DNA of 42,548 bases from an uncultured Bacilli bacterium (lineage in GTDB: Bacteria > Bacillota_I > Bacilli_A > RF39 > UBA660), in contig CALVIR010000008.1 of the NCBI GenBank assembly GCA_944331915.1, positions 1-42,548 on the forward strand. Direction: 5' to 3'. Each line of letters begins with the position of its first letter. The first letter of the stretch is position 1. Below the pieces are notes generated by a model. It worked only from the letters and a program-made list of their open reading frames with translations, ran no database searches and was not told where the DNA came from. Of the stretch, positions 5,626 through 40,572 are shown piece after piece. The position numbers were made by a program, and so were the translations under genes.

Positions 5626-6170
5626 ATTAAATCATCCTCACTTTCTAAAGCAATTATTTTATCAGCTTCTTCATAAAGATGTTCTTTTGAGGTATTTTCA
5701 ATGGTATAGTCATAATCATTATATTTATCTACCTCAAGCTCAGTAACATGATTTTTTTCTTTCACTGATAAATTATTATCATATCCAACTCGTTTTACAT
5801 GAATAATCTTCATAAAAGGATATCTTTTCTTAAGTTCTAGAAATTCACTTATTAGTCTCCCATCAGTAATAATAAAGACCGAAAAGTAATGTTTTAATAT
5901 ATCGATATCTTCACATAACCTATCGATTAAGAAGGTATCTTTTCCAAGTTGTTTCTTTATAACCTCAATTCCCATTTCTTGTAAAAACTCCCGAGGTTTT
6001 TCTTGCATATTACCGTCCCAACTAAAGTAGTTTCTTGCATATTCGTATAAAGGTGTAGTTATATGCATAATACAAGCACTTTCACCAATAAAGTCGTATT
6101 TAGTCTTCATATAACTACCTAATAAATCTTTTCCAGAACCCGCTTTTCCTGCTAATAAAAATATCTTCAT
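5622..6170 (-). CDS. P-loop kinase, deoxynucleotide-monophosphate-kinase-like
   Basis: A 182 aa P-loop protein with Walker A AGKAGSGKD at the N-terminus, an IITDGRL segment (possible Walker B and specificity loop), and a basic helix around HVKRVG. The layout resembles phage-type dNMP kinases and related adenylate-kinase-like proteins; the substrate is not known. The ATG at 6170 is chosen because AGAGGTG lies 5 bases upstream; a GTG two codons earlier overlaps that site. It is the first gene after the T-box terminator, so its transcription should depend on tRNA-Ala charging, and it overlaps the next kinase gene by 4 bases. Confidence 0.65.
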   Translation of the reverse strand: MKIFLLAGKAGSGKDLLGSYMKTKYDFIGESACIMHITTPLYEYARNYFSWDGNMQEKPREFLQEMGIEVIKKQLGKDTFLIDRLCEDIDILKHYFSVFIITDGRLISEFLELKKRYPFMKIIHVKRVGYDNNLSVKEKNHVTELEVDKYNDYDYTIENTSKEHLYEEADKIIALESEDDLI

Positions 6171-7648: not shown

Positions 7649-9505
7649 TTAGTAACTTGCTAAAGCCAAAGTGAATGGATTCTGTAAAGTTCCATCACCC
7701 CCAGTAATAACAACATTCTCTTTTAAATTTAAACAAGGTTTGATACCAAATTCATCTGCTGGATAATTATAAAAAGTATAGCCATAATCATCTATCCCTC
7801 TAACATTAGTAGAATTAATTGGGGTTAGAGTCCAATATGACATAGTATTACCACCTTTTTCAAATTGACCTGCTAACATTTCACCAACTCTCAACAAACC
7901 AATCATCATATTTGCATTAGTAGCCAAACTATCAAGATTATTATTTGTATATTTGGCCATTTTATAACTTGCCCCAATACCTACTGTTCCCAAGTACCAC
8001 GTTGTATTATTTTCTATCATCGCTATATCATCACTCGTCAAATAGCCATTTCCCGGATTCAAATAATCATTATTCAAAAATGTTCCTATGGTATTTGTGT
8101 TTGAAAAAGTTGTATTACTACCAAAAGCACTTTTTACAAAGGTTCCTCCGTTCTTTAATGGTTCAGCACTTACTATTTTTGTTCCTGTACCATTTTCATG
8201 ACTAACTATTCGGTACAAATTATTTTCGCCTGTTCCAAACTTTATGTATTCTCCACTATACCTTGTATTTAACCGAGTTCCGACAATATTTTTATCATTA
8301 TCTCTATTTAGTCTATATGGATTTTCTTTCGTTCCTTCGCCACTTACTATTCTCACATCAGATTTTAAATTTATAGCAGGCCTTATTCCGCCTGCACCTG
8401 ATGGTGTTGCAAAATATGTATTACCGTCAGCACCAATAGTATATACATTAGAAGAATCATACGGAGTCAAAATCCACCAAGCAAGAGCATCATTTAAATA
8501 ACCTTTAGCACTAGTTGTACCATCATAACTCATCGTATATTCATAGACATTTAAAAGTCCTACTGGATCTGTTACCATTGTCGTTTCTGCCGGCTTCCCT
8601 GTTCCTGTCATCATAGTCGCATTCCACTCACTATCCATTTTTATAAACTTTTCTGGTTCTCTTAAATTACCTAAGAAACCATCTACACTTGTATCATTTA
8701 GCCATTCTTCCATATAACTACCTTCAAAAGCAGTATCTCCACCAGAATATGGTATGGTACTGATATTCCATTGTGTTACTAATTTAACACTATTATCTGC
8801 TGGATCTATCGATATCGCTCTCCATAATTTACCGCTATACCAGATATAGTTATTTGGATCTGTTCCTGTTATAAAGGTCTGATCTGGATCTGTTGTATTT
8901 ATCGCTCCATTTTCTCCTACTCCTGCAAGTAGTACATCAGCTACAGGTTCACCTCTTACTTGGGATGCTTCTATTCTAAGTTTAGCTTTAAAAACTTTAC
9001 CACTAGCTTCCTCCACTGTCGCATCATAGTCAATCCAAATTCTTAAAGTATATGTATTTATCCCATCAACTGGTAATGAATCACTATCAACTACTCTATT
9101 AGGATTAGCTCCCATAGTAGTTAAATCTTTCGCTTCTCCTAATGTCTCATTCTTCTCTAAACTATACCTTAAAGCACTATCAGGTATTCGTGTTTCTCCT
9201 TCACTTAATTCAATATCATCCAAGTAAACTGTATATTCAGTCTCAATATTACCTTTATTTTCTACACTAAAGGTAAAACCATCTTGAGACATACCTACAC
9301 TATCTTCTTCTGGTATTTGTCCTTCTAAAGTTATCTCATTATTTTCTGTTAAAATTAAATTTAAACTACCTGCTCTAACGATATACTCTTTATCTCCTGT
9401 TAATGTGGTTACTAAATAAGCAAAAGATACTCCTATTAAAAGAACTACTAATATTAGAATACTTATAATTAGAACCATTCTATCCTTCTTTAAAGACTCA
9501 TTCAT
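7649..9505 (-). CDS. Surface protein: TasA-like N-domain plus two lectin-like modules
   Basis: A 618 aa predicted exported protein. A hydrophobic segment (about 11-30) ends in GVSFAYLVTT, followed by GSLNLILTE, the pattern of SipW-dependent TasA/camelysin proteins (N-domain to about 180). Two related modules follow: the first (about 190-400) ends WWILTPYDSS...GGIRPAINLKS, the second (about 405-618) ends YWTLTPINST...FGIKPCLNLKE with a short GDGTLQNPFTL tail. I read these as a C-type-lectin/FGE-like (DUF6273-like) fold; this is inference from the motif pattern. Its modules are those of the long A genes of the array at 20-32 kb, but its variable stretches are AT-rich. RBS AAGGAGTG precedes the ATG. 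Confidence 0.85.
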   Translation of the reverse strand: MNESLKKDRMVLIISILILVVLLIGVSFAYLVTTLTGDKEYIVRAGSLNLILTENNEITLEGQIPEEDSVGMSQDGFTFSVENKGNIETEYTVYLDDIELSEGETRIPDSALRYSLEKNETLGEAKDLTTMGANPNRVVDSDSLPVDGINTYTLRIWIDYDATVEEASGKVFKAKLRIEASQVRGEPVADVLLAGVGENGAINTTDPDQTFITGTDPNNYIWYSGKLWRAISIDPADNSVKLVTQWNISTIPYSGGDTAFEGSYMEEWLNDTSVDGFLGNLREPEKFIKMDSEWNATMMTGTGKPAETTMVTDPVGLLNVYEYTMSYDGTTSAKGYLNDALAWWILTPYDSSNVYTIGADGNTYFATPSGAGGIRPAINLKSDVRIVSGEGTKENPYRLNRDNDKNIVGTRLNTRYSGEYIKFGTGENNLYRIVSHENGTGTKIVSAEPLKNGGTFVKSAFGSNTTFSNTNTIGTFLNNDYLNPGNGYLTSDDIAMIENNTTWYLGTVGIGASYKMAKYTNNNLDSLATNANMMIGLLRVGEMLAGQFEKGGNTMSYWTLTPINSTNVRGIDDYGYTFYNYPADEFGIKPCLNLKENVVITGGDGTLQNPFTLALASY

Positions 9506-20136: not shown

Positions 20137-21621
20137 TTATATTTCCAAAATGTATGGATTACTACTACTGCCATCACCGGCAGCGATTTTGACATTAGAT
20201 TTTAGGAAGACGACTGGAAGAGCCTGAACCATATTATCAGAATCAACGGGATTACCATTAACAGATCCGGTGAAATTTAAGAAAAAAACAGAACCATTAT
20301 AAGATGACATCGGCGTAATAGTCCATTGATAAGCGTAAGTGAATAACCAATCATTATTTTTGCAATCACTGAAGCTGCTATTATTCCAGCTAGATAATTC
20401 TTTGTTTAAACAAGTATTTCTATCAGTAGTAGGTCCTCCACTTGTCGCGTAACCATAGTCTGAGGGATACATTAATCCTACTTTTCCTACCCAAAAGGTA
20501 TCTCTACCACTATATACATCTGTTCCTCGCTCATATGAATAAAAATGACTTGTTAGTCCAGTACTCACACTCTCATAATTTGCTGCTCCTCCTAAATACC
20601 ATAGAGTATCTCCTATCATCTCTTTAGCTTCACTACCTAAACTATTAGTCCAGTAATCTCCGGAATTTAAATTAGTGTTCAATGTAGCCGTAGGCCAGTT
20701 ATTAACGCTATTAGTGTCCCAAGTTATAGTACCAATAGATTCATCTCTTATTATTTTAAGCCTTTCTTCCATCTTACCGGTGCCATCATCTACAGTAAAG
20801 ACCCCAATAATACGCCATGTTTCATTGTTGAATGTTATGTAGTTATTAGGATTTGCTCCAATATACCGATAATCAGTTAAAGCTCCTGTTTGTTCTGTGG
20901 CAGGATGAGAGAAGGTCCACATCTCTTTTTGCTGTTCTGCTGTAGCGCTGTTATAATCTAAACCTTCTGGATTTGTTTTTGCAAGTAATGTTTCTACTGC
21001 TGGAACTGGCATTTTATCTCCATCTTTACCATAGACATTTATTTTCACGCTAAATTCTAAGCCTCCTCCATCGCCTTGAGGATTGTATTCTTCAGTTACA
21101 TACATTCTAAGACGATAATTATTAGTTTCACTAGAGTTCATACTACTTGCATATAAACTCATTTCTCCTGCTGGTCTTCCTGTATAATTATTGGCATTAG
21201 TTTCTTCGTTATATGTTTCTGGTGTCATTAACTCTTCTTCAGTACCATCTTCTGTTATTCTTGTAAGATACAACTTGATATTAGATCCATCTATCTTTCT
21301 ATCGCTTACTGTTACGTCTTTAGCACTTATTTCATAGTTGATATTTACATTACCAGTGATATTACTTGATATTGTAAAATCAAAGTACTCTCCTTCTGTT
21401 AGTCTAACTGTACCTGTCGCATCTGTTGTTGGCAAGGCTCCTGTCATATTAATAACATTATCACTTTCAGTGTAAGTCATCATTATCGCACCACTTGTAA
21501 TACTGTTTACTTGAGTACCAGTTCCGGTATAACTAAAAGCGGCATAACTTACTCCTACTACTGCTACAATCATTAGTAAAATTAAGCCTAAGATTATTAC
21601 TTTTTCTTTACTCTTACTCAT
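20137..21621 (-). CDS. Surface protein A4: TasA-like N-domain with a third body type
   Basis: A 494 aa predicted exported protein and the last gene of the array. Residues 1-205 are nearly identical to the other A proteins: a membrane segment ending GVSYAAFSYTGTG, then the TasA-like domain. The body differs from both other types: it starts WTFSHPATEQTGALTDYRYIG, carries TWRIIGVF and two Cys (TCLNKE and SDCKNN), and ends QWTITPMSSY...ALPVVFLKSNVKI with a short GDGSSSNPYIL tail. The same overall frame suggests a lectin-like module with a different loop set. The ATG overlaps the stop of the B gene before it by 4 bases (ATGA). Confidence 0.85.
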   Translation of the reverse strand: MSKSKEKVIILGLILLMIVAVVGVSYAAFSYTGTGTQVNSITSGAIMMTYTESDNVINMTGALPTTDATGTVRLTEGEYFDFTISSNITGNVNINYEISAKDVTVSDRKIDGSNIKLYLTRITEDGTEEELMTPETYNEETNANNYTGRPAGEMSLYASSMNSSETNNYRLRMYVTEEYNPQGDGGGLEFSVKINVYGKDGDKMPVPAVETLLAKTNPEGLDYNSATAEQQKEMWTFSHPATEQTGALTDYRYIGANPNNYITFNNETWRIIGVFTVDDGTGKMEERLKIIRDESIGTITWDTNSVNNWPTATLNTNLNSGDYWTNSLGSEAKEMIGDTLWYLGGAANYESVSTGLTSHFYSYERGTDVYSGRDTFWVGKVGLMYPSDYGYATSGGPTTDRNTCLNKELSSWNNSSFSDCKNNDWLFTYAYQWTITPMSSYNGSVFFLNFTGSVNGNPVDSDNMVQALPVVFLKSNVKIAAGDGSSSNPYILEI

Positions 21622-21930
21622 ACCTCTTCACGCTTCTTTCTATAAACACCATATGTTATAGTAGCTAGACCTAAGATTAAAGTTATTCCCATTACTAAAT
21701 AGATATTACTCATTGTAACGGGATTCTTTATGACTGTTACTCTTATTAAGTAATTAGTTAAGCCATCACTACTAACACCTCTAATTATAGTTTGCCCTTC
21801 TTTTAAACCTAAGATTTTATTATCTTCTATTTTAGAGATACTTTCATCATCACTTGTCCAAGTTATATCTATATTCAATGGAACATCTTCTTGAAAAGCA
21901 GGAGGAATATCACTACTAGATCCTTCTTCT
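21040..21930 (-). repeat. B-end/A-start junction repeat, copy 1
   Basis: Covers the 3' end of B3 (Ig-like domain, anchor) and the 5' end of A4 (export segment, TasA-like domain). It is very similar to copies at about 24340-25230 and 27830-28730; boundaries are approximate. Confidence 0.8.
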
Positions 21931-23189
21931 ATTGTTATTACACCTTCATAGTTATTATTTTCTACCTTTTCTAGATAATAAGGATTATCACTAGTACCTT
22001 CACCAACAAGAGTCATGCCTTCTGTTTTAATATTAATTACTGGCCGTAGGGCATAGTAGTCATTGATGCTACCTTCATAATAAGACAGACTACCATTATC
22101 GGTAAAAACATAGCCACCATCAGAATCATCAAAACGGAAGGGAGTCATAGTCCAATAAGAATCTCCATTTTTTCCGGAATTTAAATAACTATTACCTAAT
22201 ACATCTAAACTTTCTCCTGCAAAAACTAATTCATCTGCTGTTATTAGTCCTGCCTTTAATTTATAACTACCTCCATAACTTTCAGTTGTTTCTGGGCATA
22301 TAAAGGTTGGAGTATTGTCTTTTACAGAATCATAATTTCTTTGTCCTAACCTATCATAACTTGCAAAGTTACCTCGTCCATCATAATTATAGCCACTGCT
22401 ATCACTACAAAATCTTCCTAAGATAACATATTGATCATAATCATTATTCTTACCTAAGGTATTATTATACCAAGTATCTACCTCTTTCTTTATAAATGAA
22501 TCTATTCCATTATCATAGGTATACCCAGTATATTTTGGATCATTAAAATTTAAATTATAAGATACTGACCCTACTACTCCTGATATTTCTTCTTCAGTAA
22601 AAGACATAACAGAACTGCCTAGTTTTAAATTATTTAATCCAGGTCCATTGTATATCAATCTGATACTACCATCACCATTAATTCTTACTATCTTCCAGTA
22701 CATCTTATCTCCAGCACTAGCAAGTTTTACGGGAGTACACCTGCTATTACCGTCCTCTTGGCAACTCTCGATACTTTGATAATACCGGTCAAGATTAACT
22801 ATTGGTGAATAATACACATAATAATCTTCATCATATGCTCCAAAGACAAAATTGTTATTATCTACATCTCCACGATAATAATATGTGGTTCCGTCTTCAT
22901 CTTCTCTACTATAAAGTCCTTCTGTTATATAATCTGGATTATTTTTATCTTCATAACTAGATATATCAAAATAATTACCATTACTGGCATAGTTAAACAT
23001 ATGAGGTATCTCTTGTTTTAACTCATTATCACTTAGTATTTTATTTAAAACAAGGTTAGTAGTATTTCCTTCATTATAGGTGTTATAACTAACTATGCTT
23101 CTATGATTTATAGTTAGAGAATTAGTGAATAATATGCTGCTAAGAGCAAGAGACTCTAATACTAATAATTTATATTTCTTGTGTTTCAT
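21618..23189 (-). CDS. Surface protein B3: lectin-like module, Ig-like domain, C-terminal anchor
   Basis: A 523 aa protein. It starts MKHKKYKLLVLESLALSSIL (an uncleaved or cleaved export signal), has a short Asn/Thr linker, then the B module (about 65-400) with Cys at SCQEDGNSRC, RFCSDSS and ICPETTES, ending YWTMTPFRF...LRPVINIKTEGM. A beta-rich Ig/Big2-like domain (about 410-490, with ITWTSDDESISKIEDNKIL and GQTIIRGVSS) precedes a C-terminal membrane helix and a KKREEV tail. It should sit on the cell surface with its C-terminus inside. The ATG at 23189 follows GGAGG. The next A gene overlaps its stop by 4 bases. Confidence 0.85.
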   Translation of the reverse strand: MKHKKYKLLVLESLALSSILFTNSLTINHRSIVSYNTYNEGNTTNLVLNKILSDNELKQEIPHMFNYASNGNYFDISSYEDKNNPDYITEGLYSREDEDGTTYYYRGDVDNNNFVFGAYDEDYYVYYSPIVNLDRYYQSIESCQEDGNSRCTPVKLASAGDKMYWKIVRINGDGSIRLIYNGPGLNNLKLGSSVMSFTEEEISGVVGSVSYNLNFNDPKYTGYTYDNGIDSFIKKEVDTWYNNTLGKNNDYDQYVILGRFCSDSSGYNYDGRGNFASYDRLGQRNYDSVKDNTPTFICPETTESYGGSYKLKAGLITADELVFAGESLDVLGNSYLNSGKNGDSYWTMTPFRFDDSDGGYVFTDNGSLSYYEGSINDYYALRPVINIKTEGMTLVGEGTSDNPYYLEKVENNNYEGVITIEEGSSSDIPPAFQEDVPLNIDITWTSDDESISKIEDNKILGLKEGQTIIRGVSSDGLTNYLIRVTVIKNPVTMSNIYLVMGITLILGLATITYGVYRKKREEV

Positions 23190-23205
23190 ATCTTCCTCCA
23201 TTTAA
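22960..23205 (-). repeat. B-start repeat, copy 1
   Basis: The first about 220 bases of each B gene and its ribosome-binding region are nearly identical in the three copies (here, 26240-26495 and 29745-30002). Confidence 0.8.
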
Positions 23206-23215
23206 AATTAGGTTA

Positions 23216-24922
23216 TTATTGCGATACTAAAACGTATGGATTTTGAGCAGTTCCTTCACCAATAAGTGTCATGCCTTCTGTTTTAACATTAATTACTGGT
23301 CTTATAACATTAGTATAGTATACATAATCAGCTGCTAATAAATATGACTGAACCCATGTAATAGTAGAAGCTTCTCTTGAAAAAACTAATGGTGTCATAC
23401 TCCAATAATTTGCATCATCATCCCCTGAATTTAAATAACTATTTCCAAATACTTCTAAATTTTCTCCCGCTAAAACTAATTCATCAGCAGTTATTAAACC
23501 AGCTTTTAATCTATAACTACCTCCATAACTTTCACTTGTTTCTGGACACTTTAATGTTGGAGCGTTGTCCTTTGCAAAATTAGAATTTACTTGTCCTAAC
23601 CTATCATAACTGGAAAAAAGTATATTACCTTCTTGTTCTAAAAATTTGCTACTATCACTACAGAATCTTCCTAAAATAACCATACTATCATAAGCTGTAT
23701 TTCCTAAAGAGTTAGCATACCATGTGTCAATCTCACGTTTTATAAATGAATCTACCCCATCATCATAGGTATATCCGGTATATTTTGGATCATCAATTCC
23801 TAAATTATATGATACATTACCAATTACTCCAGAAATATCATTTTCGGCAAAAGAGACAGGGCCAACCTCACTTTCATCTATTCCTGGCCCCAAATAAATT
23901 AACCTTAAGCTACCATCACCGTTTACCCTTATAATATTCCAATACATTTTATCACCTTGAGACGCCAATTTAGTTAGAAGACAATTATCAGCATTACCGG
24001 TATTTTCTTGACAACTATCTAAACTCTGATAATAAAGATTACTATTTTTAGATTTATATACATAATAATCTTTTTCATATTCTCCAAACTGGATAATATT
24101 ATCTACATCTCCTCTAAAGTAGTAACTTACTCCATCTTCATCTTCTCTACTATATAATCCATTTGTTATATATTCTGGATTTGGATCAGTTGCATAATCA
24201 TCTTTATCATTTGGATCATATTGTGTTCCATTACTAGCATAATTAAACATACTTTCTTTTTCTTCTTGAAGAGGATTATTAGCAAGTAATGTGTCCAATA
24301 CTGATGGGACATATTTATCGCCATCTTTACCATAGACATTTATTTTTATGCTAAACTCTAAGCCTCCGCCATCTCCTTGAGGATTATATTCTTCGGTTAC
24401 ATACATTCTAAGACGATAGTTATTAGTTTCACTAGAGTTCATACTACTTGCATATAAACTCATTTCTCCTGCTGGACGTCCTGTATAATCATTTGCTGTA
24501 GCTTCTTCATTATATGTTTCTGGACTCATTAACTCTTCTTCTGTGCCATCTTCTGTTATTCTTGTTAGATATAACTTGATATTAGAGCCATCTATCTTTC
24601 TATCACTTACTGTTACATCTTTAGCACTTATCTCATAGTTGATATTTACATTACCAGTGATATTACTTGATATCGTAAAATCAAAATATTCTCCTTCTGT
24701 TAGTCTAACCGTTCCTGTCGCATCAGTTGTAGGTAAGGCTCCTGTCATGTTAATGACATTATCACTTTCAGTGTAAGTCATCATAATTGCTCCACTTGTT
24801 ATACTATTTACTTTAGTACCTGTTCCTGTATATCTAAAAGCAGCATAACTTACTCCTATTACTGCTATAATCATTATTAAGATTAACCCTAAAATTATTA
24901 TCTTTTCTTTACTCTTGCTCAT
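23216..24922 (-). CDS. Surface protein A3: A-type N-domain fused to a B-type body
   Basis: A 568 aa chimera. Residues 1-205 are the A-type export segment and TasA-like domain; from about residue 212 the protein continues as a B-type body (MFNYASNGTQYD, then LYSREDEDGVSYYFRGDVDN, RFCSDSSKFLEQE, KCPETSES) and ends YWSMTPLVFS...IRPVINVKTEGM plus GEGTAQNPYVL. It lacks the Ig-like domain and C-terminal anchor of B proteins. Its body shares the RFCSDSSKFLEQE stretch with B1, and its N-domain is almost identical to that of A2, so it looks like a recombination product. The ATG overlaps the end of B2 by 4 bases. Confidence 0.85.
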   Translation of the reverse strand: MSKSKEKIIILGLILIMIIAVIGVSYAAFRYTGTGTKVNSITSGAIMMTYTESDNVINMTGALPTTDATGTVRLTEGEYFDFTISSNITGNVNINYEISAKDVTVSDRKIDGSNIKLYLTRITEDGTEEELMSPETYNEEATANDYTGRPAGEMSLYASSMNSSETNNYRLRMYVTEEYNPQGDGGGLEFSIKINVYGKDGDKYVPSVLDTLLANNPLQEEKESMFNYASNGTQYDPNDKDDYATDPNPEYITNGLYSREDEDGVSYYFRGDVDNIIQFGEYEKDYYVYKSKNSNLYYQSLDSCQENTGNADNCLLTKLASQGDKMYWNIIRVNGDGSLRLIYLGPGIDESEVGPVSFAENDISGVIGNVSYNLGIDDPKYTGYTYDDGVDSFIKREIDTWYANSLGNTAYDSMVILGRFCSDSSKFLEQEGNILFSSYDRLGQVNSNFAKDNAPTLKCPETSESYGGSYRLKAGLITADELVLAGENLEVFGNSYLNSGDDDANYWSMTPLVFSREASTITWVQSYLLAADYVYYTNVIRPVINVKTEGMTLIGEGTAQNPYVLVSQ

Positions 24923-25230
24923 ACATTTTCACTCTTTCTTCTATAAACTCCATATGTTATAGTTGCTAAACCTAAGATTAAAGTTATTCCCATTACTAAA
25001 TAGATATTGCTCATAGTAACAGGATTCTTTATGACTGTTACTCTTATTATGTAATTAGTTAGACCATCACTACTAACACCTCTAATTATAGTTTGGCCTT
25101 CTTTTAAACCTAAGATTTTATTATCTTCTATTTTAGAGATGCTTTCATCATCACTTGTCCAAGTTATATCTATATCTAATGGGACATCTTCTTGAAAAGC
25201 AGGAGGAATATCACTATTAGAGCCTTCTTC
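24340..25230 (-). repeat. B-end/A-start junction repeat, copy 2
   Basis: Covers the end of B2 and the start of A3. Over several hundred bases it reads almost identically to copy 3; the B stop and A start are exactly 3500 bases from the same points in copy 3. Confidence 0.85.
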
Positions 25231-26469
25231 TATTGTTATTACCCCTTCATAGTTATTAGTTTTTGCTTCTTCCAGATAATAGGGATTATCACTAGTCCCT
25301 TCACCAACAAGAGTCATGCCATCTGTTTTAATATTAATTACTGGACGGATACCATTTATAGCAAGTCTTCCGCCTAATATACCTTTATAACTTATAAATA
25401 TTTCTGTGCCAGAGTCGTAAAAACTACTTGGTGTCATAGTAAAAAAATTATAATTATTGTTATAAGCAGTTAAATAAGTATTTGCTGAGACATTTAAATT
25501 TTCACCTGCCAATACCATTTCATCTGCTGTTATTAGTCCGGCTTTTAATCTATAACTACCTCCATAACTTTCTGTTGTTACTGGACATTTTAAAGTTGGT
25601 GCATTATCTTTTATAAAAGCAAATCCTGCTTGCCCTAATCTATCAAAACCTGCAAAGTTAAAGTTACCATATTCATTATAATTATACCCACTACTATCAC
25701 TACAAAATCTTCCTAAGATAACATATTGATCATAATCATTATTCTTACCTAAGGTATTATTATACCAAGTATCTACCTCTTTCTTTATAAATGAGTCTGT
25801 TCCATTATCATAGGTATATCCTGTATATTTTGGATTATTGCGTTCCAAATTATATGAAATAGAACCAATTACTCCCGGTGTTGTTTCTTCATCAAAAGAC
25901 ATAGGATAAATATCGGAATTATTTAGTCCTGGTCCTAAATATATTAATCTTAAACTACCATCACCATTTACTCTTATAATATTCCAGTACATTTTATCAC
26001 CTTGTGATGCTAATTTAATTTTGAGATTCTCATTACAATATTGAGAATATTCTTGGCAACTTTCTAGACTTTGAAAATAATATTGTCCACCACCATACAC
26101 GTAGTAATCTTCATCATATGCTCCAAACTCAATAATATTATCTACATTTCCTCTAAAGTAATAACTTACTCCATCCTCATCTTCCCCACTATAAAGTCCT
26201 TCTGTTATATAATCTTTATTATTCTTAATTTCATAACTAGATATATCATAATAATTACCATTACTTGCATAGTTAAACATATGAGGTATCTCTTGTTTTA
26301 ACTCATTATCACTTAGTATTTTATTTAAAACAAGGTTAGTAGTATTTCCTTCATTATAGGTATTGTAACTAACTATGCTTCTATGATTTATAGTTAGAGA
26401 ATTAGTGAATAATATGCTGCTAAGAGCAAGAGATTCTAATACTAATAATTTATATTTCTTGTGTTTCAT
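24919..26469 (-). CDS. Surface protein B2
   Basis: A 516 aa type B protein with the same layout as B3: N-terminal hydrophobic segment, Cys-containing module, Ig-like domain and C-terminal helix with RRKSENV tail. Its Cys loop reads CQEYSQYCNENLK, and its variable end is FFTMTPSSFYDSGTEIF...GIRPVINIKTDGM; the interior between FFTMTP and GIRPV does not resemble B1 or B3 although the flanks are nearly identical. GGAGGAAGA lies before the ATG, 27 bases after the A2 stop. The junction with A3 is an almost exact copy of the B1/A2 junction. Confidence 0.85.
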   Translation of the reverse strand: MKHKKYKLLVLESLALSSILFTNSLTINHRSIVSYNTYNEGNTTNLVLNKILSDNELKQEIPHMFNYASNGNYYDISSYEIKNNKDYITEGLYSGEDEDGVSYYFRGNVDNIIEFGAYDEDYYVYGGGQYYFQSLESCQEYSQYCNENLKIKLASQGDKMYWNIIRVNGDGSLRLIYLGPGLNNSDIYPMSFDEETTPGVIGSISYNLERNNPKYTGYTYDNGTDSFIKKEVDTWYNNTLGKNNDYDQYVILGRFCSDSSGYNYNEYGNFNFAGFDRLGQAGFAFIKDNAPTLKCPVTTESYGGSYRLKAGLITADEMVLAGENLNVSANTYLTAYNNNYNFFTMTPSSFYDSGTEIFISYKGILGGRLAINGIRPVINIKTDGMTLVGEGTSDNPYYLEEAKTNNYEGVITIEEGSNSDIPPAFQEDVPLDIDITWTSDDESISKIEDNKILGLKEGQTIIRGVSSDGLTNYIIRVTVIKNPVTMSNIYLVMGITLILGLATITYGVYRRKSENV

Positions 26470-26496: not shown

Positions 26497-28422
26497 TTAT
26501 TGTAAGGTTAAGGTGAAAGGATTTTGAAGGGTTCCATCTCCCCCAGTGATGATGACGTTTTGTTTTAGATTTAGGGATGGCCGCACGCCATACGCATAGG
26601 AGCGTCGTGAGTAGCTACTACCGCTGGTTAAAGCCATAATCCATAGGTAATCCGAAGAATATGGTGTTAACGTCCAATAAGTTGTAGTATTACCATATCT
26701 ATCAAATTGTCCAGCCATTAGTTCTCCCATTCTCAAAAGTCCTACTTTTGCTGTTGTTACACTTGTTGTTAGAATATCATCTGTGGTATTAGTATACTTT
26801 GCAAGTTTATAACTTACACCATCACCTACTGTTCCAAGATACCATGTTGTATTATCTTCTATCATCGCAATATCTTCATCTATCAAATAACTATTTTCTT
26901 TATTCAAATAATCATTATTTAAAAATGTTCCTATTGTAGTACTCGAAAAAGTTTCAGCATTATACCTAGCAAAAGCAATTTCTATAAATTCTCCATCACT
27001 CTTTAACGGCTCATCACTCGTTATCTTTGTGCCTGTGCCATTTTCATGACTTACTATCCGATATAGATTATTCTCTCCTGTTCCAAACCTTATATATTCT
27101 CCACTATATCTTGTATTTAACAATGTTCCCGAAAGTTCTGTGTCATTGTCTCCATTTAGTCTATATGGATTATTTATTGTTCCATCACCACTCACTATTT
27201 TCACGTTAGACTTCAGATTTATTGATGGGCGAACACCAAGCGCGTTCGAAGGGGTATCGTTATCAGGACCGCCATTGTAGAACACTCTCCAAAGGCGAGA
27301 CGAAGAATAAGGAGTGATACTCCTCCAAATAATGCCATTATTCAAATAACCATTACTATAAGTTGTTCCACTATAACTCATTCTATATTCATAAATATTT
27401 AATAGTCCTACTGGATCTGTTACCATTGTTGTTTCTGCTGGTTTAGTTGTTGCAGTTGTCTCTGTTGCATTCCACACACTATCTAACTTAATAAAATTCT
27501 CATAATCTCTTAAATTACCTAAGAAACCATCAACACTTGTATCATTTAACCAATCTTCCATATAACTACCTTCAAATGCTGTACTACCGCTTGAATAAGT
27601 AATTGAACTTATATTCCACTGGGTTACTAATTTAACACTATTATCATCCGGATCAATAGATACTGCTCTCCATAATTTACCACTATACCAAATATAGTTA
27701 TTTGGATCTGTTCCTGTTATAAATGTCTGATCTTTATCTGTTGTATTTATCGCTCCATTTGCTCCTACTCCTGATAATAATACATCTGCGACAGGACCAG
27801 TTGTAACAGGCATTTTGTCTCCATCTTTACCATAGACATTTATCTTGACACTAAACTGTAAATTACCTCCATCTCCTTGAGGATTATATTCTTCGGTTAC
27901 ATACATTCTAAGACGATAGTTATTGGTTTCACTAGAGTTCATACTACTTGCATATAAACTCATTTCTCCTGCTGGTCTACCAGTATAATTGTTAGCACTT
28001 GCTTCTTCATTATATGTCTCTGGACTCATTAATTCTTCTTCTGTTCCATCTTCTTTTATTCTTGTTAGATATAACTTGATATTAGAACCATCTATCTTTC
28101 TATCACTTGTTGTTACGTCTTTAGCACTTATCTCATAGTTGATATTTACATTACCAGTAATATTACTTGATATCGTAAAATCAAAATATTCTCCTTCTGT
28201 TAGTCTAACCGTTCCTGTCGCATCAGTTGTAGGTAAGGCTCCTGTCATGTTAATGACATTATCACTTTCAGTGTAAGTCATCATAATTGCTCCACTTGTT
28301 ATACTATTTACTTTAGTACCTGTTCCTGTATATCTAAAAGCAGCATAACTTACTCCTATTACTGCTATAATCATTATTAAGATTAACCCTAAAATTATTA
28401 TCTTTTCTTTACTCTTGCTCAT
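26497..28422 (-). CDS. Surface protein A2: TasA-like N-domain plus two lectin-like modules
   Basis: A 641 aa protein. The N-terminal 205 residues match A3. The first module (about 212-420) ends WRSITPYSSSRLWRVFYNGG...LGVRPSINLKS; the second (about 425-641) ends YWTLTPYSSDYLWIMALTSG...YGVRPSLNLKQ, with a GDGTLQNPFTL tail. There is no C-terminal anchor. The codons between PYSS and GVRP in both modules use C and G far more than the rest of the gene (for example CGC, GGC, GCG, CGG), unlike the AT-rich flanks. The ATG overlaps the B1 stop by 4 bases, and B2 starts 27 bases after its end. Confidence 0.87.
   Translation of the reverse strand: MSKSKEKIIILGLILIMIIAVIGVSYAAFRYTGTGTKVNSITSGAIMMTYTESDNVINMTGALPTTDATGTVRLTEGEYFDFTISSNITGNVNINYEISAKDVTTSDRKIDGSNIKLYLTRIKEDGTEEELMSPETYNEEASANNYTGRPAGEMSLYASSMNSSETNNYRLRMYVTEEYNPQGDGGNLQFSVKINVYGKDGDKMPVTTGPVADVLLSGVGANGAINTTDKDQTFITGTDPNNYIWYSGKLWRAVSIDPDDNSVKLVTQWNISSITYSSGSTAFEGSYMEDWLNDTSVDGFLGNLRDYENFIKLDSVWNATETTATTKPAETTMVTDPVGLLNIYEYRMSYSGTTYSNGYLNNGIIWRSITPYSSSRLWRVFYNGGPDNDTPSNALGVRPSINLKSNVKIVSGDGTINNPYRLNGDNDTELSGTLLNTRYSGEYIRFGTGENNLYRIVSHENGTGTKITSDEPLKSDGEFIEIAFARYNAETFSSTTIGTFLNNDYLNKENSYLIDEDIAMIEDNTTWYLGTVGDGVSYKLAKYTNTTDDILTTSVTTAKVGLLRMGELMAGQFDRYGNTTTYWTLTPYSSDYLWIMALTSGSSYSRRSYAYGVRPSLNLKQNVIITGGDGTLQNPFTLTLQ
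26578..26651 (-). repeat. Hypervariable patch, second module of A2
   Basis: Between the conserved TATTCTTCG edge (26652-26660 region) and GGCGTGCGGCCATC at the other end. It is G+C-rich against AT-rich flanks and differs from the other patches mostly by amino-acid-changing substitutions. Confidence 0.6.
27231..27298 (-). repeat. Hypervariable patch, first module of A2
   Basis: Lies between TTATTCTTCGTC and GGTGTTCGCCC. It shares GTG, GGC and CCTTCGAAC blocks with the A1 patches while the codons between them change, for example CGC, TTC and TAC where A1 has TAC/ACC, AGC/CTC and TCC/AGC. Confidence 0.65.
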
Positions 28423-28730
28423 ACATTTTCACTCTTTCTTCTATAAACTCCATATGTTATAGTTGCTAAACCTAAGATTAAAGTTATTCCCATTACTAAA
28501 TAGATATTGCTCATAGTAACAGGATTCTTTATGACTGTTACTCTTATTATGTAATTAGTTAGACCATCACTACTAACACCTCTAATTATAGTTTGGCCTT
28601 CTTTTAAACCTAAGATTTTATTATCTTCTATTTTAGAGATGCTTTCATCATCACTTGTCCAAGTTATATCTATATCTAATGGGACATCTTCTTGAAAAGC
28701 TGGAGGAATATCACTACTAGATCCTTCTTC
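27830..28730 (-). repeat. B-end/A-start junction repeat, copy 3
   Basis: Covers the end of B1 and the start of A2. The A half is also present at 31330-31934 (start of A1) without a B gene before it. Confidence 0.85.
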
Positions 28731-29978
28731 TATTGTTATTACACCTTCATAGTTATTAGTTTTTGCTTCTTCTAGATAATAGGGATTATCACTAGTTCCA
28801 TCTCCTGTTAAAGTCATACCTTCTGTTTTAATATTAATTACGGGACGAACGGTATAGTATCTGTTAATATATGAACTATTTAAACCAGCATATTCTAACA
28901 ATACATAAGCACCATTATAAAAGAAATTATCAGGCGTCATAGTCCAATAAGGTTCTCCATGTTCTCCTGTATTTAAGTAACTATTTCCTATTCCAACACT
29001 TTCACCTGCAAAAACAAGCTCATCTGCTGTTATTAAACCAGCTTTTAATTTATAACTACCTCCATAGCTTTCAGTTGTTTCTGGGCATATAAAGGTTGGA
29101 GCATTGTCCTTTGCAAAATTATAATCTACTTGTCTTAATCTATCAAAACTGGAAAAAAGTATATTACTTTCTTGTTCTAAAAATTTGCTACTATCACTAC
29201 AGAATCTTCCTAAGATGACATATTGGTCATATGCATTGTTTTTACCTAAGGTATTATTATACCAAGTATCTACCTCTTTCTTTATAAATGAGTCTGTTCC
29301 ATTATCATAGGTATACCCGGTATATTTTGGATAATTAAAATTTAAATTATAAGGTACTGCCCCTACTACTCCTGATATTTCTTCTTCATTAAAAGATACC
29401 TCTACAGCCCCTAGTTTCAAATCATTTAATCCAGGGCCATTATATATAAGTCTAATACTACTATCACCATTAATTCTTACTATCTTCCAGTACATCTTAT
29501 CTCCAGCACTAGCAAGTTTTACGGGAGTACAACTTCTATTAGTAGCTTCTTGGCAGCTTTCTAAACTTTGAAAATATTGATCAACATTGCCTTCTACATA
29601 ATATATATAATAATCTTCATCATATGCTCCAAAGATGAGGTTATTATTATCTATATCTCCACGATAATAATATGTTGTTCCATCTTCATCTTCTCTACTA
29701 TAAAGTCCTTCTGTTATATAGTCTTTATTGTTTTGATATTTATGATTAGATATATCATAGTAATTACCATTACTTGCATAGTTAAACATATGAGGTATCT
29801 CTTGTTTTAACTCATTATCACTTAGTATCTTATTTAAGACAAAGTGAGTAGTATTTCCTTCATTATAGGTGTTATAACTAACTATGCTTCTATGATTTAT
29901 AGTTAGAGAATTAGTGAATAATATGCTACTAAGAGCAAGGGACTCTAATACTAATAATTTATATTTCTTGTGTTTCAT
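28419..29978 (-). CDS. Surface protein B1
   Basis: A 519 aa type B protein, second gene of the array. Signal-like N-terminus, module with Cys at SCQEATNRSC, RFCSDSS and ICPETTES, variable end YWTMTPDNFFYNGAYVLL...TVRPVINIKTEGM, Ig-like domain and C-terminal helix with RRKSENV. Its RFCSDSSKFLEQE segment is like that of A3 and unlike B2 and B3, which points to block exchange between copies. GGAGGAAGA precedes the ATG, 27 bases after the A1 stop; the A2 start overlaps its stop by 4 bases. Confidence 0.85.
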   Translation of the reverse strand: MKHKKYKLLVLESLALSSILFTNSLTINHRSIVSYNTYNEGNTTHFVLNKILSDNELKQEIPHMFNYASNGNYYDISNHKYQNNKDYITEGLYSREDEDGTTYYYRGDIDNNNLIFGAYDEDYYIYYVEGNVDQYFQSLESCQEATNRSCTPVKLASAGDKMYWKIVRINGDSSIRLIYNGPGLNDLKLGAVEVSFNEEEISGVVGAVPYNLNFNYPKYTGYTYDNGTDSFIKKEVDTWYNNTLGKNNAYDQYVILGRFCSDSSKFLEQESNILFSSFDRLRQVDYNFAKDNAPTFICPETTESYGGSYKLKAGLITADELVFAGESVGIGNSYLNTGEHGEPYWTMTPDNFFYNGAYVLLEYAGLNSSYINRYYTVRPVINIKTEGMTLTGDGTSDNPYYLEEAKTNNYEGVITIEEGSSSDIPPAFQEDVPLDIDITWTSDDESISKIEDNKILGLKEGQTIIRGVSSDGLTNYIIRVTVIKNPVTMSNIYLVMGITLILGLATITYGVYRRKSENV

Positions 29979-30002
29979 ATTCTTCCTCCATTTGAAATTA
30001 GG
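29745..30002 (-). repeat. B-start repeat, copy 3
   Basis: Start of B1 plus the A1-B1 spacer, nearly identical to the other two B starts, with a few substitutions (for example the segment encoding TTHFVLNK where the others encode TTNLVLNK). Confidence 0.8.
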
Positions 30003-30005
30003 TTA

Positions 30006-31934
30006 TTATTGAACTGATAAAGTGAAAGGATTTTGCAAAGTCCCATCTCCCCCAGTGATAATGACGTTAGATTTTAGATTTATAGACGGCAGCACGCCGC
30101 TCGAACCGCGCGAAGGCAAATTGGTGTAAGCGTTGCCATTGCTGAGCACATTCCAAACGGTTGACGAAGAATATGGTGTTAATGTCCAATAATTTGTATT
30201 ATTACTAACTCTATCAAATTGTCCTGCCATTAATTCTCCCATTCTCAAGAGACCTACTTTAGCTGTCGTTACACTTGATGTTAGAATATTATCTGTTGTA
30301 TTTGTATATTTTGCTAGTTTATAACTTGCTCCATCTCCTACTGTTCCTAAATACCAGGTTGTATTATCTTCTATCATTGCTATATCTTCGTTTGTCAAAT
30401 AGTCATTTTCTGTATTTAGATAATCATTATTCAAAAATGTTCCTATTGTATTAGTACTCGAAAAAGTTGTATTACTACCAAAAGTATTTGTTACAAATGT
30501 TCCTCCACGTTTTAACGGTTTAGCACTTGTTATCTTTGTTCCTGTTCCATTTTCATGACTTACTATTCGATATATATTATTCTCCCCTGCTCCAAATCTT
30601 ACATATTCTCCACTATATCTTGTATTCAACAATGTTCCTGAAAGTTCTTTTTCATTATCTCCGTTTAAGCGATAAGGGTTATCTATTGTTCCATCTCCAT
30701 CTACAATTCGAACGCTAGATTTTAGATTTATAGACGGCCGCACGCCAAACAAATTGTTCGAAGGCAAATAGTTTGCGGCTTGGCCGTCGGAGCTCACATA
30801 CCAAACGTAAGACGAAGAATAAGGAGTGATACTCCACCATAAAAGGTCATTATTCAAATAACCATTACCTCGAGTTGTCCCACTATAACTCATTGTATAC
30901 TCATAAATATTTAATAATCCAACAGGATCAGTTACCAAAGTTGTTTCTGCTGGCTTAGTTGTTGCAGTTGTCTCTGTTGCATTCCACACACTATCTAACT
31001 TAATAAAATTCTCATAATCTCTTAAATTTCCAAGAAATCCATCAACACTTGTATCATTTAACCACTCTTCCATATAACTACCTTCAAAGGCTGTACTACC
31101 ACTCGAATAATTAATTGCACTTATATTCCACTGGGTTACTAACTTAACACTATTATCAGCAGGATTTATACTTACAGCTCTCCATAACTTTCCACTATAC
31201 CAGATATAGTTATTGGGGTCTTTCCCTGTTATAAATGTTTGATCTTGATCTGTTGTATTTATCGCTCCATTTTCTCCTACTCCTGACAGTAATACGTCAG
31301 CAACAGGCCCAGTTGTAATGGGCATTTTATCGCCATCTTTACCATAGACATTTATCTTGACACTAAACTCTAAGCCTCCTCCATCGCCTTGAGGATTATA
31401 TTCTTCGGTTACATACATTCTAAGACGATAATTATTGGTTTCACTACTATTCATACTACTTGCATATAAACTCATTTCTCCTGCTGGACGTCCTGTATAA
31501 TCATTTGCTGTAGCTTCTTCATTATATGTTTCTGGACTCATTAACTCTTCTTCAGTACCATCTTCTGTTATTCTTGTAAGATACAACTTGATATTAGAGC
31601 CATCTATCTTTCTATCACTTGTTGTTACGTCTTTGGCACTTATTTCATAGTTGATATTGACATTACCCGTGATATTACTTGATATTGTAAAATCAAAGTA
31701 TTCTCCTTCTGTTAATCTAACTGTACCTGTCGCATCAGTTGTTGGTAAGGCTCCTGTCATATTAATAACATTATCACTTTCAGTGTAAGTCATCATAATT
31801 GCTCCACTTGTAATACTATTTACTTTTGTACCAGTTCCTGTATAACTAAAAGCAGCATAACTTACTCCTATTACAGCAATAATCATTATCAGTATTAAAC
31901 CTAATATTATTATCTTTTCTTTCTTTTGCGCCAT
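30006..31934 (-). CDS. Surface protein A1: TasA-like N-domain plus two lectin-like modules
   Basis: A 642 aa protein, first gene of the array. MAQKKEK then a membrane segment ending GVSYAAFSYTGTG, a TasA-like domain to about 205 (ITSGAIMMTYTES, EYFDFTISSN), then two modules ending WWSITPYSSSYVWYVSSDG...FGVRPSINLKS and YWTLTPYSSSTVWNVLSNG...SGVLPSINLKS. A TasA-like N-domain suggests processing by a SipW-type peptidase and assembly into a fibre; no such peptidase is in the window. GGAGG lies 9 bases before the ATG, and a strong promoter lies upstream. Both PYSS-to-PSIN interiors are G+C-rich and differ mainly at codon positions 1-2. Confidence 0.88.
   Translation of the reverse strand: MAQKKEKIIILGLILIMIIAVIGVSYAAFSYTGTGTKVNSITSGAIMMTYTESDNVINMTGALPTTDATGTVRLTEGEYFDFTISSNITGNVNINYEISAKDVTTSDRKIDGSNIKLYLTRITEDGTEEELMSPETYNEEATANDYTGRPAGEMSLYASSMNSSETNNYRLRMYVTEEYNPQGDGGGLEFSVKINVYGKDGDKMPITTGPVADVLLSGVGENGAINTTDQDQTFITGKDPNNYIWYSGKLWRAVSINPADNSVKLVTQWNISAINYSSGSTAFEGSYMEEWLNDTSVDGFLGNLRDYENFIKLDSVWNATETTATTKPAETTLVTDPVGLLNIYEYTMSYSGTTRGNGYLNNDLLWWSITPYSSSYVWYVSSDGQAANYLPSNNLFGVRPSINLKSSVRIVDGDGTIDNPYRLNGDNEKELSGTLLNTRYSGEYVRFGAGENNIYRIVSHENGTGTKITSAKPLKRGGTFVTNTFGSNTTFSSTNTIGTFLNNDYLNTENDYLTNEDIAMIEDNTTWYLGTVGDGASYKLAKYTNTTDNILTSSVTTAKVGLLRMGELMAGQFDRVSNNTNYWTLTPYSSSTVWNVLSNGNAYTNLPSRGSSGVLPSINLKSNVIITGGDGTLQNPFTLSVQ
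30090..30163 (-). repeat. Hypervariable patch, second module of A1
   Basis: Bounded by TATTCTTCGTC and GGCGTGCTGCCGTC. The 22 bases from 30068 to 30089 are identical to 30716-30737 beside the other A1 patch, and the TTGCCTTCG block in the middle is also identical, while most codons between these blocks differ. Confidence 0.7.
30733..30810 (-). repeat. Hypervariable patch, first module of A1
   Basis: Bounded by TTATTCTTCGTC and GGCGTGCGGCCGTC. By hand count about half of the bases are G or C, against roughly a third or less in the flanks. Paired codons against the second A1 patch keep the third base in many cases (TAC/ACC, TAT/AAT, AGC/CTC, TCC/AGC, AAC/CGC). Confidence 0.7.
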
Positions 31935-38712: not shown

Positions 38713-40572
38713 TTAATTAGCCAGTTCAATAATGAAAGGGTTTTGCAAGGTTCCATCTCCACCTGTGATGATGACGCTTTGTTTTAGATTTAGAGATGGC
38801 TTTATACCTTGTGCTGTAATTGGAGCATAACCATAAGTATAATATCCACTATTTGTACAAAGCCATAAAAATGCATTATTAGCTCTTGTCAAAGACCAAA
38901 AATATGTATTTGACCGAATATTAACATCACCTTTAGTAGCATATCTATTAAATTGTCCTGACATTAATTCTCCTAAACGTAATAATCCTATTTTTGCTTT
39001 TGTTGTATTTGAGGTAAGAATATTATCTGTGGTATTAGTATATTTTGCTAATTTATGACTTTCATTACTATCTACTGTTCCTATATACCATGTTGTCTCA
39101 TCTTCTATCATTGCAATATCATTACTTGTCAAATACCCATTTTCTAGATTTAAATAATCATTATTCAAAAATGTGCCAATAATGTTTGTACTTGAAAAAA
39201 TGTTATTATTACCAAATCCAGAGAAAATAAAACTATCATTATTTTTTAATGGTTCAGCACTAGTTATTTTTGTTAAGCCACTTGTTTCATGATTTACAAT
39301 ACGGTATAAATTATTTTTCCCTGTTCCAAATCTTATATATTCTCCACTATAGCGTGTATTTAATAACGTTCCTGATAAATTAACATCATTATCACCTTCA
39401 AGTCGATACGGGTTATCAATAGAACCATCACCAGCGATTATTTTTATTTCAGGAGTTAAATTAATAGTTGGGCGTATTGGAAAAGATCTAATATCAGAAA
39501 TACTTACTATTTCTGCAGTTCCATTATAATTAATACGCCAAATATTTGAATTATTGGTTGGGGATAAAGTTGTATAAATAAGACCATTATTTAAATAACC
39601 ATTACTAGAGTCCGTTCCACTATAACTCATCGTATATTCATAGATATTTAATAGTCCTACTGGATCTGTTACCAAAGTTATTTCTGCTGGCTTTGTGGTT
39701 TCAGTTGTCTCTGTCGCATTCCACACACTATCTAACTTAATAAAATTCTCATAATCTCGCAAATTGCCTAAAAATTCATCGATACTTGTATCATTTAACC
39801 ATTCTTCCATATAACTACCTGCAAAGGCAGAATCTCCACTCGAATACGATATTGAACTTATATTCCACTGGGTTACTAATTTAATGCTATTATCACTTGA
39901 ATCTATTGATACTACTCTCCATAGTTTACCACTATACCAGATATAATTATAAGGATTATCTCCTGTTACAAAAGTCTGTTCATTATCTTCATAGTTTAAT
40001 CTATTCATGATGTCATCTTCTATTACCTCAGATACTGTTCCAGTTGAGGTTATTTTTCTTAATAAATGGCCATCACTAGGTAGATTTAAATCATTATAAT
40101 CTAGTCCTACACTTACACCTAAATTGATTGTTACACTACTACTTGTAATATTTGTAAGTCTTACTATATAAGTATTACTACTACCAATAGTACTTACTGG
40201 TTCTAGATTTATTCCTGTTTTAAGTGGAGGATTATTAAACTCATTTCTTTCTATATAACCTATATCTACACCATTAGGTAAATCTCCTAGATAATAAAAA
40301 TTAAATCTTGCTACTCTACTATTAGGATTATTAAGTGTCACTATAAAGTCTTGTCGACTATTAGCTGCAACTGTTAAAGTATTAGACTTAACTCCATCTA
40401 TTAATAATTCATAAGTTAAGTTACCTGTTACTATACTTATGGCGTTACTCTTTTCTTTGGTTACTGTAAACATTGCATAAGAAAAGTAACTTGTTAATAG
40501 TAGCAAAGTTATTAATATTACACTTATTATATATATTTTTGATATTTTAGTATTTAATAATATTCTCTTCAT
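38713..40572 (-). CDS. Surface protein: divergent TasA-like N-domain plus two lectin-like modules
   Basis: A 619 aa predicted exported protein. A hydrophobic segment (about 13-32) ends SYFSYAMFTVT, followed by a beta-rich domain (VTGNLTYELLIDG, to about 175) of the TasA/camelysin pattern but unlike the array N-domains. Two modules follow: the first ends YTTLSPTNNSNIWRINYNG...FPIRPTINLTPE, the second YFWSLTRANNAFLWLCTNSG...GIKPSLNLKQS with the GDGTLQNPF tail. Both interiors are AT-rich. It is preceded by a leader with a short ORF, a 9-G tract and a terminator, so expression may be conditional or phase-variable. Confidence 0.85.
   Translation of the reverse strand: MKRILLNTKISKIYIISVILITLLLLTSYFSYAMFTVTKEKSNAISIVTGNLTYELLIDGVKSNTLTVAANSRQDFIVTLNNPNSRVARFNFYYLGDLPNGVDIGYIERNEFNNPPLKTGINLEPVSTIGSSNTYIVRLTNITSSSVTINLGVSVGLDYNDLNLPSDGHLLRKITSTGTVSEVIEDDIMNRLNYEDNEQTFVTGDNPYNYIWYSGKLWRVVSIDSSDNSIKLVTQWNISSISYSSGDSAFAGSYMEEWLNDTSIDEFLGNLRDYENFIKLDSVWNATETTETTKPAEITLVTDPVGLLNIYEYTMSYSGTDSSNGYLNNGLIYTTLSPTNNSNIWRINYNGTAEIVSISDIRSFPIRPTINLTPEIKIIAGDGSIDNPYRLEGDNDVNLSGTLLNTRYSGEYIRFGTGKNNLYRIVNHETSGLTKITSAEPLKNNDSFIFSGFGNNNIFSSTNIIGTFLNNDYLNLENGYLTSNDIAMIEDETTWYIGTVDSNESHKLAKYTNTTDNILTSNTTKAKIGLLRLGELMSGQFNRYATKGDVNIRSNTYFWSLTRANNAFLWLCTNSGYYTYGYAPITAQGIKPSLNLKQSVIITGGDGTLQNPFIIELAN

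Follow-up and report, generated by a model that had tools for sequence, protein, structure and literature searches.

Variable regions (VRs) of diversity-generating retroelements (DGRs) are typically C-terminal in the target protein, probably owing to a downstream cis element (Roux et al., PMC8144416). Remote targets, several cassettes in one genome and several VRs per target are known for DGRs (PMC10907252, PMC4891356, PMC6642488), and DUF6273 has been described as a target domain of DGRs (PMC10743442, PMC11792537). Here, we analysed a stretch of 42,548 nucleotides (the window), which is contig C8 (CALVIR010000008.1) of a 1.37-Mb metagenome-assembled genome (MAG) of an uncultured Bacilli bacterium (GCA_944331915.1) that is 93% complete. 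An earlier note, made from the letters of the window alone, had described four G+C-rich hypervariable patches in two genes and read them as VRs, two per protein, of a DGR encoded elsewhere. Our analysis makes it very likely that the patches are DGR VRs that were written by an earlier template of the type found on contig C16 of the same genome, have since drifted and are probably no longer rewritten.

All four patches were confirmed on the minus strand at the positions claimed (Table 1), between fixed edges consisting of TATTCTTCG on one side and GG(C/T)GT(G/T)C(G/T)(G/C)CC(G/A)TC on the other. They are about half G+C, as had been noted, with values of 0.51–0.57 compared with 0.34–0.35 for the genes carrying them. 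The note had also counted by hand about 21 differences at first or second codon positions and about 6 at third positions between the two patches of one protein, called A1. This is exact for the gene at 30006–31934 (the 30k gene), where the patches differ at 11 first, 10 second and 6 third positions over 28 codons, but the effect is weak in the gene at 26497–28422 (the 26k gene), with 24 first- or second-position and 14 third-position differences over 27 codons, and the outcome depends on which of the two is A1. When the two genes were compared with one another, there were 53, 35 and 135 differences at codon positions 1, 2 and 3 outside the patches (589 codons), a pattern of normal drift, and 23, 22 and 24 inside them (49 codons). 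Because the counts differ in this way inside and outside the patches, the codon-position bias is genuine and limited to the patches.

The note had proposed searching the genome for a DGR-type reverse transcriptase (RT) and for an A-rich near-copy of the patches, and both were found. Two DGR-type RTs are encoded outside the window, on contigs C16 and C20, in addition to group II intron RTs. The RT carries the DGR-type motif IGNxxSQ, and the best solved structure for the RT of the left C20 cassette, after removal of an intron in silico, was the Bordetella phage BPP-1 DGR RT (8ub7, E=4.6e-28), followed by a group II maturase (7e-11). The motif and the structural match together place the RTs, as judged from sequence, in the DGR clade. 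The cassettes have the order target, template, small open reading frame (ORF), Avd-like ORF and RT; the Avd-like small ORFs are rightly placed, but their matches to Avd/bAvd were all sub-threshold (E 0.04–0.08). A DGR-type RT was present in 28 of 34 genomes of the genus. A further group II intron-type RT was seen in the same genome on contig C46 (L006:4252-5556).

A genome search with the first patch alone matched only itself and one fixed edge, and the C16 template was found by scanning the RT loci. It is an A-rich non-coding stretch between the target and the RT, 76% identical to the patch starting at 30090. The A-rich template repeats (TRs) of this genome, namely the C16 TR, the C20 TR and a second template of C16 type on C20 that is split (TR3), are all near RTs. 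Twenty templates gathered across the genus share a high content of AAY codons and a fixed terminal edge, GG-GT-CG-C, after which comes a non-coding tail that is conserved. TR and VR share the edge GGCGTGCGGC and then part, the TR continuing with ATTTCC and the VR with CGTCTATAAAT.

The window genes were aligned to the templates in a neutral, mostly ungapped way, and the best template for each VR was picked among about 18. As the note had expected, the changes sit on template adenines. In the 30k gene 22/46 adenines and 16/104 other bases were changed (p=5e-5), and in the 26k gene 30/48 and 35/102, respectively (p=0.001). When 16 GC-rich VRs were pooled, 202/382 adenines had changed compared with 89/806 other bases (p=9e-53), the bias being strong for the VRs on C6, C21, C33 and C20 and moderate for the window genes. 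Fourteen decayed paralogous stretches given the same treatment as an internal control had changed fractions of 0.59 for adenines and 0.56 for other bases (p=0.25), so the signal is no product of the method. In same-locus TR/VR pairs from relatives, which came from a scan favouring A changes, adenines differed in 227/395 cases and other bases in 12/565; a control of the scan gave 18 matches for A, 2 each for C and G, and 0 for shuffled sequence. In four relatives (G024, G008, G002 and G025) a single template fits both VRs of the adjoining two-domain gene with 0–2 non-A changes, which directly supports the idea that one template serves two VRs in a protein. Both VRs of the 30k gene have four non-A differences from the present C16 template in common, and this points to an older or sister template as the source of both. 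The reading of the patches as DGR VRs, two per protein, is thus borne out by the RTs, the templates, the adenine bias and the relatives in which one template fits two VRs.

In the proposed mechanism, an A-rich template RNA would be reverse-transcribed with errors at adenines, and the complementary DNA would take the place of the corresponding sequence where each lectin-like domain ends; copying would presumably run from template to VR. The paired AAY codons of the template would allow first and second codon positions to vary and keep the third as C or T. A single template would have supplied the two domains of a protein and, in trans, many dispersed genes. The window genes would owe their VRs to a previous form of the C16-type template and would have drifted afterwards. 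The fixed edges would have a part in this, possibly as elements resembling the initiation of mutagenic homing (IMH) sequence. The two fixed blocks of the 30k gene are near-identical to one another and partially match the 3′ end of the TR at GGCGTGCGGC. It is plausible that the presence of the same short coding block after an internal and a C-terminal VR is a way round the C-terminal limit.

The C-type-lectin fold suggested in the note is supported by structure prediction, which assigns the targets to DUF6273, a C-type-lectin-like fold. In the 30k gene, the first lectin-like domain (N-terminal; 85 sequences) was modelled with a predicted local distance difference test (pLDDT) score of 91, and the C-terminal domain (50 sequences) with a score of 48. 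The best matches of the N-terminal model were the T. ramosa immunoglobulin A (IgA) peptidase, the N-terminal domain of which is DUF6273, the C-terminal domain of Legionella Lcl (a weaker match, E=0.02) and phage proteins with DUF6273. The VR extends over a beta-hairpin of the model, the same arrangement as in phage DUF6273 DGR targets (PMC10743442). At the cell surface, the targets may bind ligands that vary. The MAG of the window is close to Candidatus Onthousia, and those relatives of the target gene that have names come from Bacilli MAGs, several of which are called Candidatus Onthousia.

The cassettes of this genome are interrupted in several ways. The C16 RT is a pseudogene (L008:253-1526) with three indels, one resembling a 7-bp tandem duplication, and YMDD changed to YMDN, and the template beside it is intact; the C16-type RT of relatives is intact, with 317 aa and YMDD. 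TR3 is split by 3,397 bp at C20:19509-22905 (L036:6510-9906). This insert contains three tyrosine recombinases; its ends are long inverted repeats, and the sequence AACGTGAA occurs as a direct repeat of 8 bp. When the flanks of TR3 are joined, the template fits the adjoining C20 VR (15/25 A changed compared with 1/47 other bases) and the remote C33 VR (9/25 compared with 0/47). The same end of the recombinase element is found at the same template position in G012 and G013, and G011 has only the first palindrome there. The RT of the third cassette lies off the contig end. The RT of the other type, on C20, contains a group II intron of 1,917 bp (C20:3836-5752; L007:3836-5752) within its YMDD codons, after GATG and before ATGG. 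Rfam models for intron D1-D4 and D5-6 scored above gathering, the match ending exactly at 5752, and an RT/maturase is present. Joining the exons gives a 368-aa YMDD RT that is 79% identical to an intact relative, and splicing is predicted to restore the motif. G013 has the same 5′ intron junction. A different interruption of a DGR template was seen in G031 (L094, TR tail near position 1840), where a template with a foreign 5′ part adjoins GCTAACGGGGTTCGCC. A literature search of partial coverage found no paper on a DGR template or RT interrupted in such ways.

With the RT of one C16-type cassette a pseudogene and the template of the other split, rewriting of the window copies has probably ceased, although a cassette that the assembly lacks could still carry it out; no intact cognate RT for the two window genes was found in the assembly. 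The part of the earlier note that placed the DGR elsewhere in the genome holds, but its statement that the genes are targets is better put as having been targets, because the cognate cassettes in the assembly look broken.

The genome contains 19 two-domain genes spread over 14 contigs (38 lectin-like domains in 1.37 Mb), and the number of domain matches reaches 42 in a relative. GC-rich, template-like VRs (GC 0.47–0.64) were found in 8 of the 19. The pattern used to extract the VR stretch missed three (C1b, C5 and C22), and the remaining recoverable genes have AT-rich stretches (GC 0.25–0.42) with no A bias. The genes C21b, C64, C18, C29, C9 and C1a and those at 7.6 and 38.7 kb in the window were tested as currently template-like targets and rejected. 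The number of non-A changes forms a gradient, from 0–3 for C6, C21, C33 and C20 through 5–10 for C16 and C17 and 6–10 for the 30k gene to 14–21 for the 26k gene, with the decayed copies, two of them within the window, at the far end. Both window genes are old copies whose VRs carry extra non-adenine changes. The freshest VRs, in C6:33438-34607 and C21:14573-15523, fit a template of G027, which belongs to another species, with 0–1 non-A changes. Either a template of this type is missing from the assembly, or genes or templates move between species; target matches to the template of another strain are reported between T. denticola strains (PMC4891356). The same VR peptide, SSSSVWCVGGSGNAYYYSPSSYSLGARPSMN, was observed in targets of two differently named MAGs (L195:1878-2540 and L204:3679-4341), which suggests a recent transfer or a binning error.

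Several points weigh against the conclusion that the patches are drifted VRs of a C16-type DGR. The assembly is incomplete and a working cassette may be missing from it, and the G027-type template for the C6 and C21 VRs was not found in it. The single p-values are inflated by the choice of the best of about 18 templates. The 6–21 non-A changes per VR in the window exceed what an active DGR leaves, and the C-terminal VR of the 26k gene aligns closely with known templates at the 3′ fixed edge only. The N-terminal model of the 30k gene was confident in only one of five cases.

The patches might instead still be actively targeted. A cassette that the assembly lacks could write them in trans, or the C20 RT with its intron could use the C16 template to do so. 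The gap in the assembly, the nearly pure A changes of the C6 and C21 genes with their template still to be located in it, the intact C16 template and the several cassettes in related genomes would all be consistent with this. However, non-A changes are numerous in the VRs of both window genes and their cognate RT is a pseudogene, while the C20 RT falls into another group (about 45% identity), one with its own type of template. We consider current activity possible but rather unlikely. The DGRs of the genus may also be a recurrent landing site, with the recombinase element (at its fixed template point with the AACGTGAA duplication) and the intron in YMDD acting as reversible off-switches for hypermutation and not as plain damage, since precise excision or splicing would restore function; this is an improbable alternative to simple decay. 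Gene conversion between paralogues by block swaps, as in the antigenic variation of mycoplasma or Neisseria, would find ample material in the 19 two-domain genes, among which recombination is generally likely. The note had named such swaps as evidence against its own reading, but the differences lie at template adenines and not in blocks, paralogues have the fixed letters in common and not the variable ones, and the genome has DGR RTs together with an A-rich template that is non-coding. Gene conversion is thus largely refuted and very improbable as the source of the patches. Plain positive selection acting on a loop that binds ligands, with no DGR involved, would fit the first- and second-position bias and the predicted hairpin loop. 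However, it predicts neither the A-specific bias relative to a non-coding template nor GC-rich AAY-derived codons, the pooled bias already refutes it for the GC-rich VRs, and it is scarcely credible.

Table 1. Features of the window related to DGR targets (A, adenines; TM, transmembrane segment)
Feature	Position	Strand	Remarks
Two-domain DGR target gene (30k gene), 642 aa	30006..31934	(-)	N-terminal signal/TM, then two predicted DUF6273/C-type-lectin-like domains, VR ending each
Internal VR, first domain	30733..30810	(-)	vs C16 TR: A changed 12/23, others 11/56, p=0.005
Fixed block by internal VR, putative IMH-like cis element	30715..30746	(-)	within coding sequence (SINLKS)
C-terminal VR, second domain	30090..30163	(-)	vs C16 TR: A changed 10/23, others 6/56, p=0.002
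Fixed block by C-terminal VR, putative IMH-like element	30067..30098	(-)
Second two-domain DGR target gene (26k gene), 641 aa	26497..28422	(-)
Internal VR, older	27231..27298	(-)	best TR G008a: A 13/24 vs others 14/51, p=0.02
C-terminal VR, oldest of four	26578..26651	(-)	best TR G027: A 17/24 vs others 21/51, p=0.02
Two-domain paralogue, VR-equivalents decayed and AT-rich	7649..9505	(-)	DUF6273 E=2.7e-10; GC 0.37/0.28; no A bias
Two-domain paralogue, VR-equivalents decayed and AT-rich	38713..40572	(-)	no A bias
Single-domain paralogue of target of second DGR type (C20 cassette), VR-equivalent largely decayed	28419..29978	(-)	47/84 to C20 TR, ungapped, p=0.06
Single-domain paralogue, TR signal gone	24919..26469	(-)	comparison with C20 TR
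Single-domain paralogue, TR signal gone	23216..24922	(-)	comparison with C20 TR
Single-domain paralogue, weak residual TR resemblance	21618..23201	(-)	46/84, p=0.17

Between 21618 and 29978 in the window, the two-domain genes alternate with four paralogues that have a single domain and are related to the target of the second DGR; the VR-equivalents of these four are mostly decayed. They were considered as targets of the C20 template and rejected, as they show little or no A bias.

These findings add to the known targets of DGRs a large, scattered family of surface-type proteins with two domains, in gut Bacilli that have small genomes. Fresh to fully decayed VRs are found side by side, which makes the ageing of hypermutated sites measurable, and with three ways of interrupting a DGR cassette in one genome, how hosts lose or switch off hypermutation becomes testable.

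The DGR of Bordetella phage BPP-1 (brt, Avd, TR, Mtd) resembles this system in the homology of its RT, the A-rich template, the fixed 3′ edge, the C-type-lectin-like target and the order target, TR, Avd (here a candidate Avd-like ORF) and RT. It differs in that the system described here is cellular, with many remote targets that have two VRs each, internal VRs and degraded cassettes. In Treponema denticola (PMC4891356), a single RT/TR core of the TvpA DGR likewise serves as many as seven surface-protein targets at scattered sites, and strains without the core keep leftover targets; its targets have a formylglycine-generating enzyme (FGE)-type domain and, according to the available part of the report, one VR each, whereas here there are 19 two-domain genes, eight of them template-like. 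In the accessible portion of the work on Thiohalocapsa PB-PSB1 (PMC10907252), a genome has several DGRs, distant targets are written in trans, a target can have more than one VR and mobile elements lie in the DGR loci, but the targets are of the conflict/NACHT type and no recombinase-split template or intron-split RT was seen in that portion. The DUF6273 DGR targets of gut phages (PMC10743442, PMC11792537) share the C-type-lectin fold predicted here, and their VR lies in a beta-hairpin on the surface where the domain ends, which is probably also the position of the VRs described here; they are phage proteins with one VR each, whereas the proteins described here are cellular, carry a signal/TM segment and have two such domains. 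The unusual part of this system is the interrupted template together with the interrupted catalytic motif.

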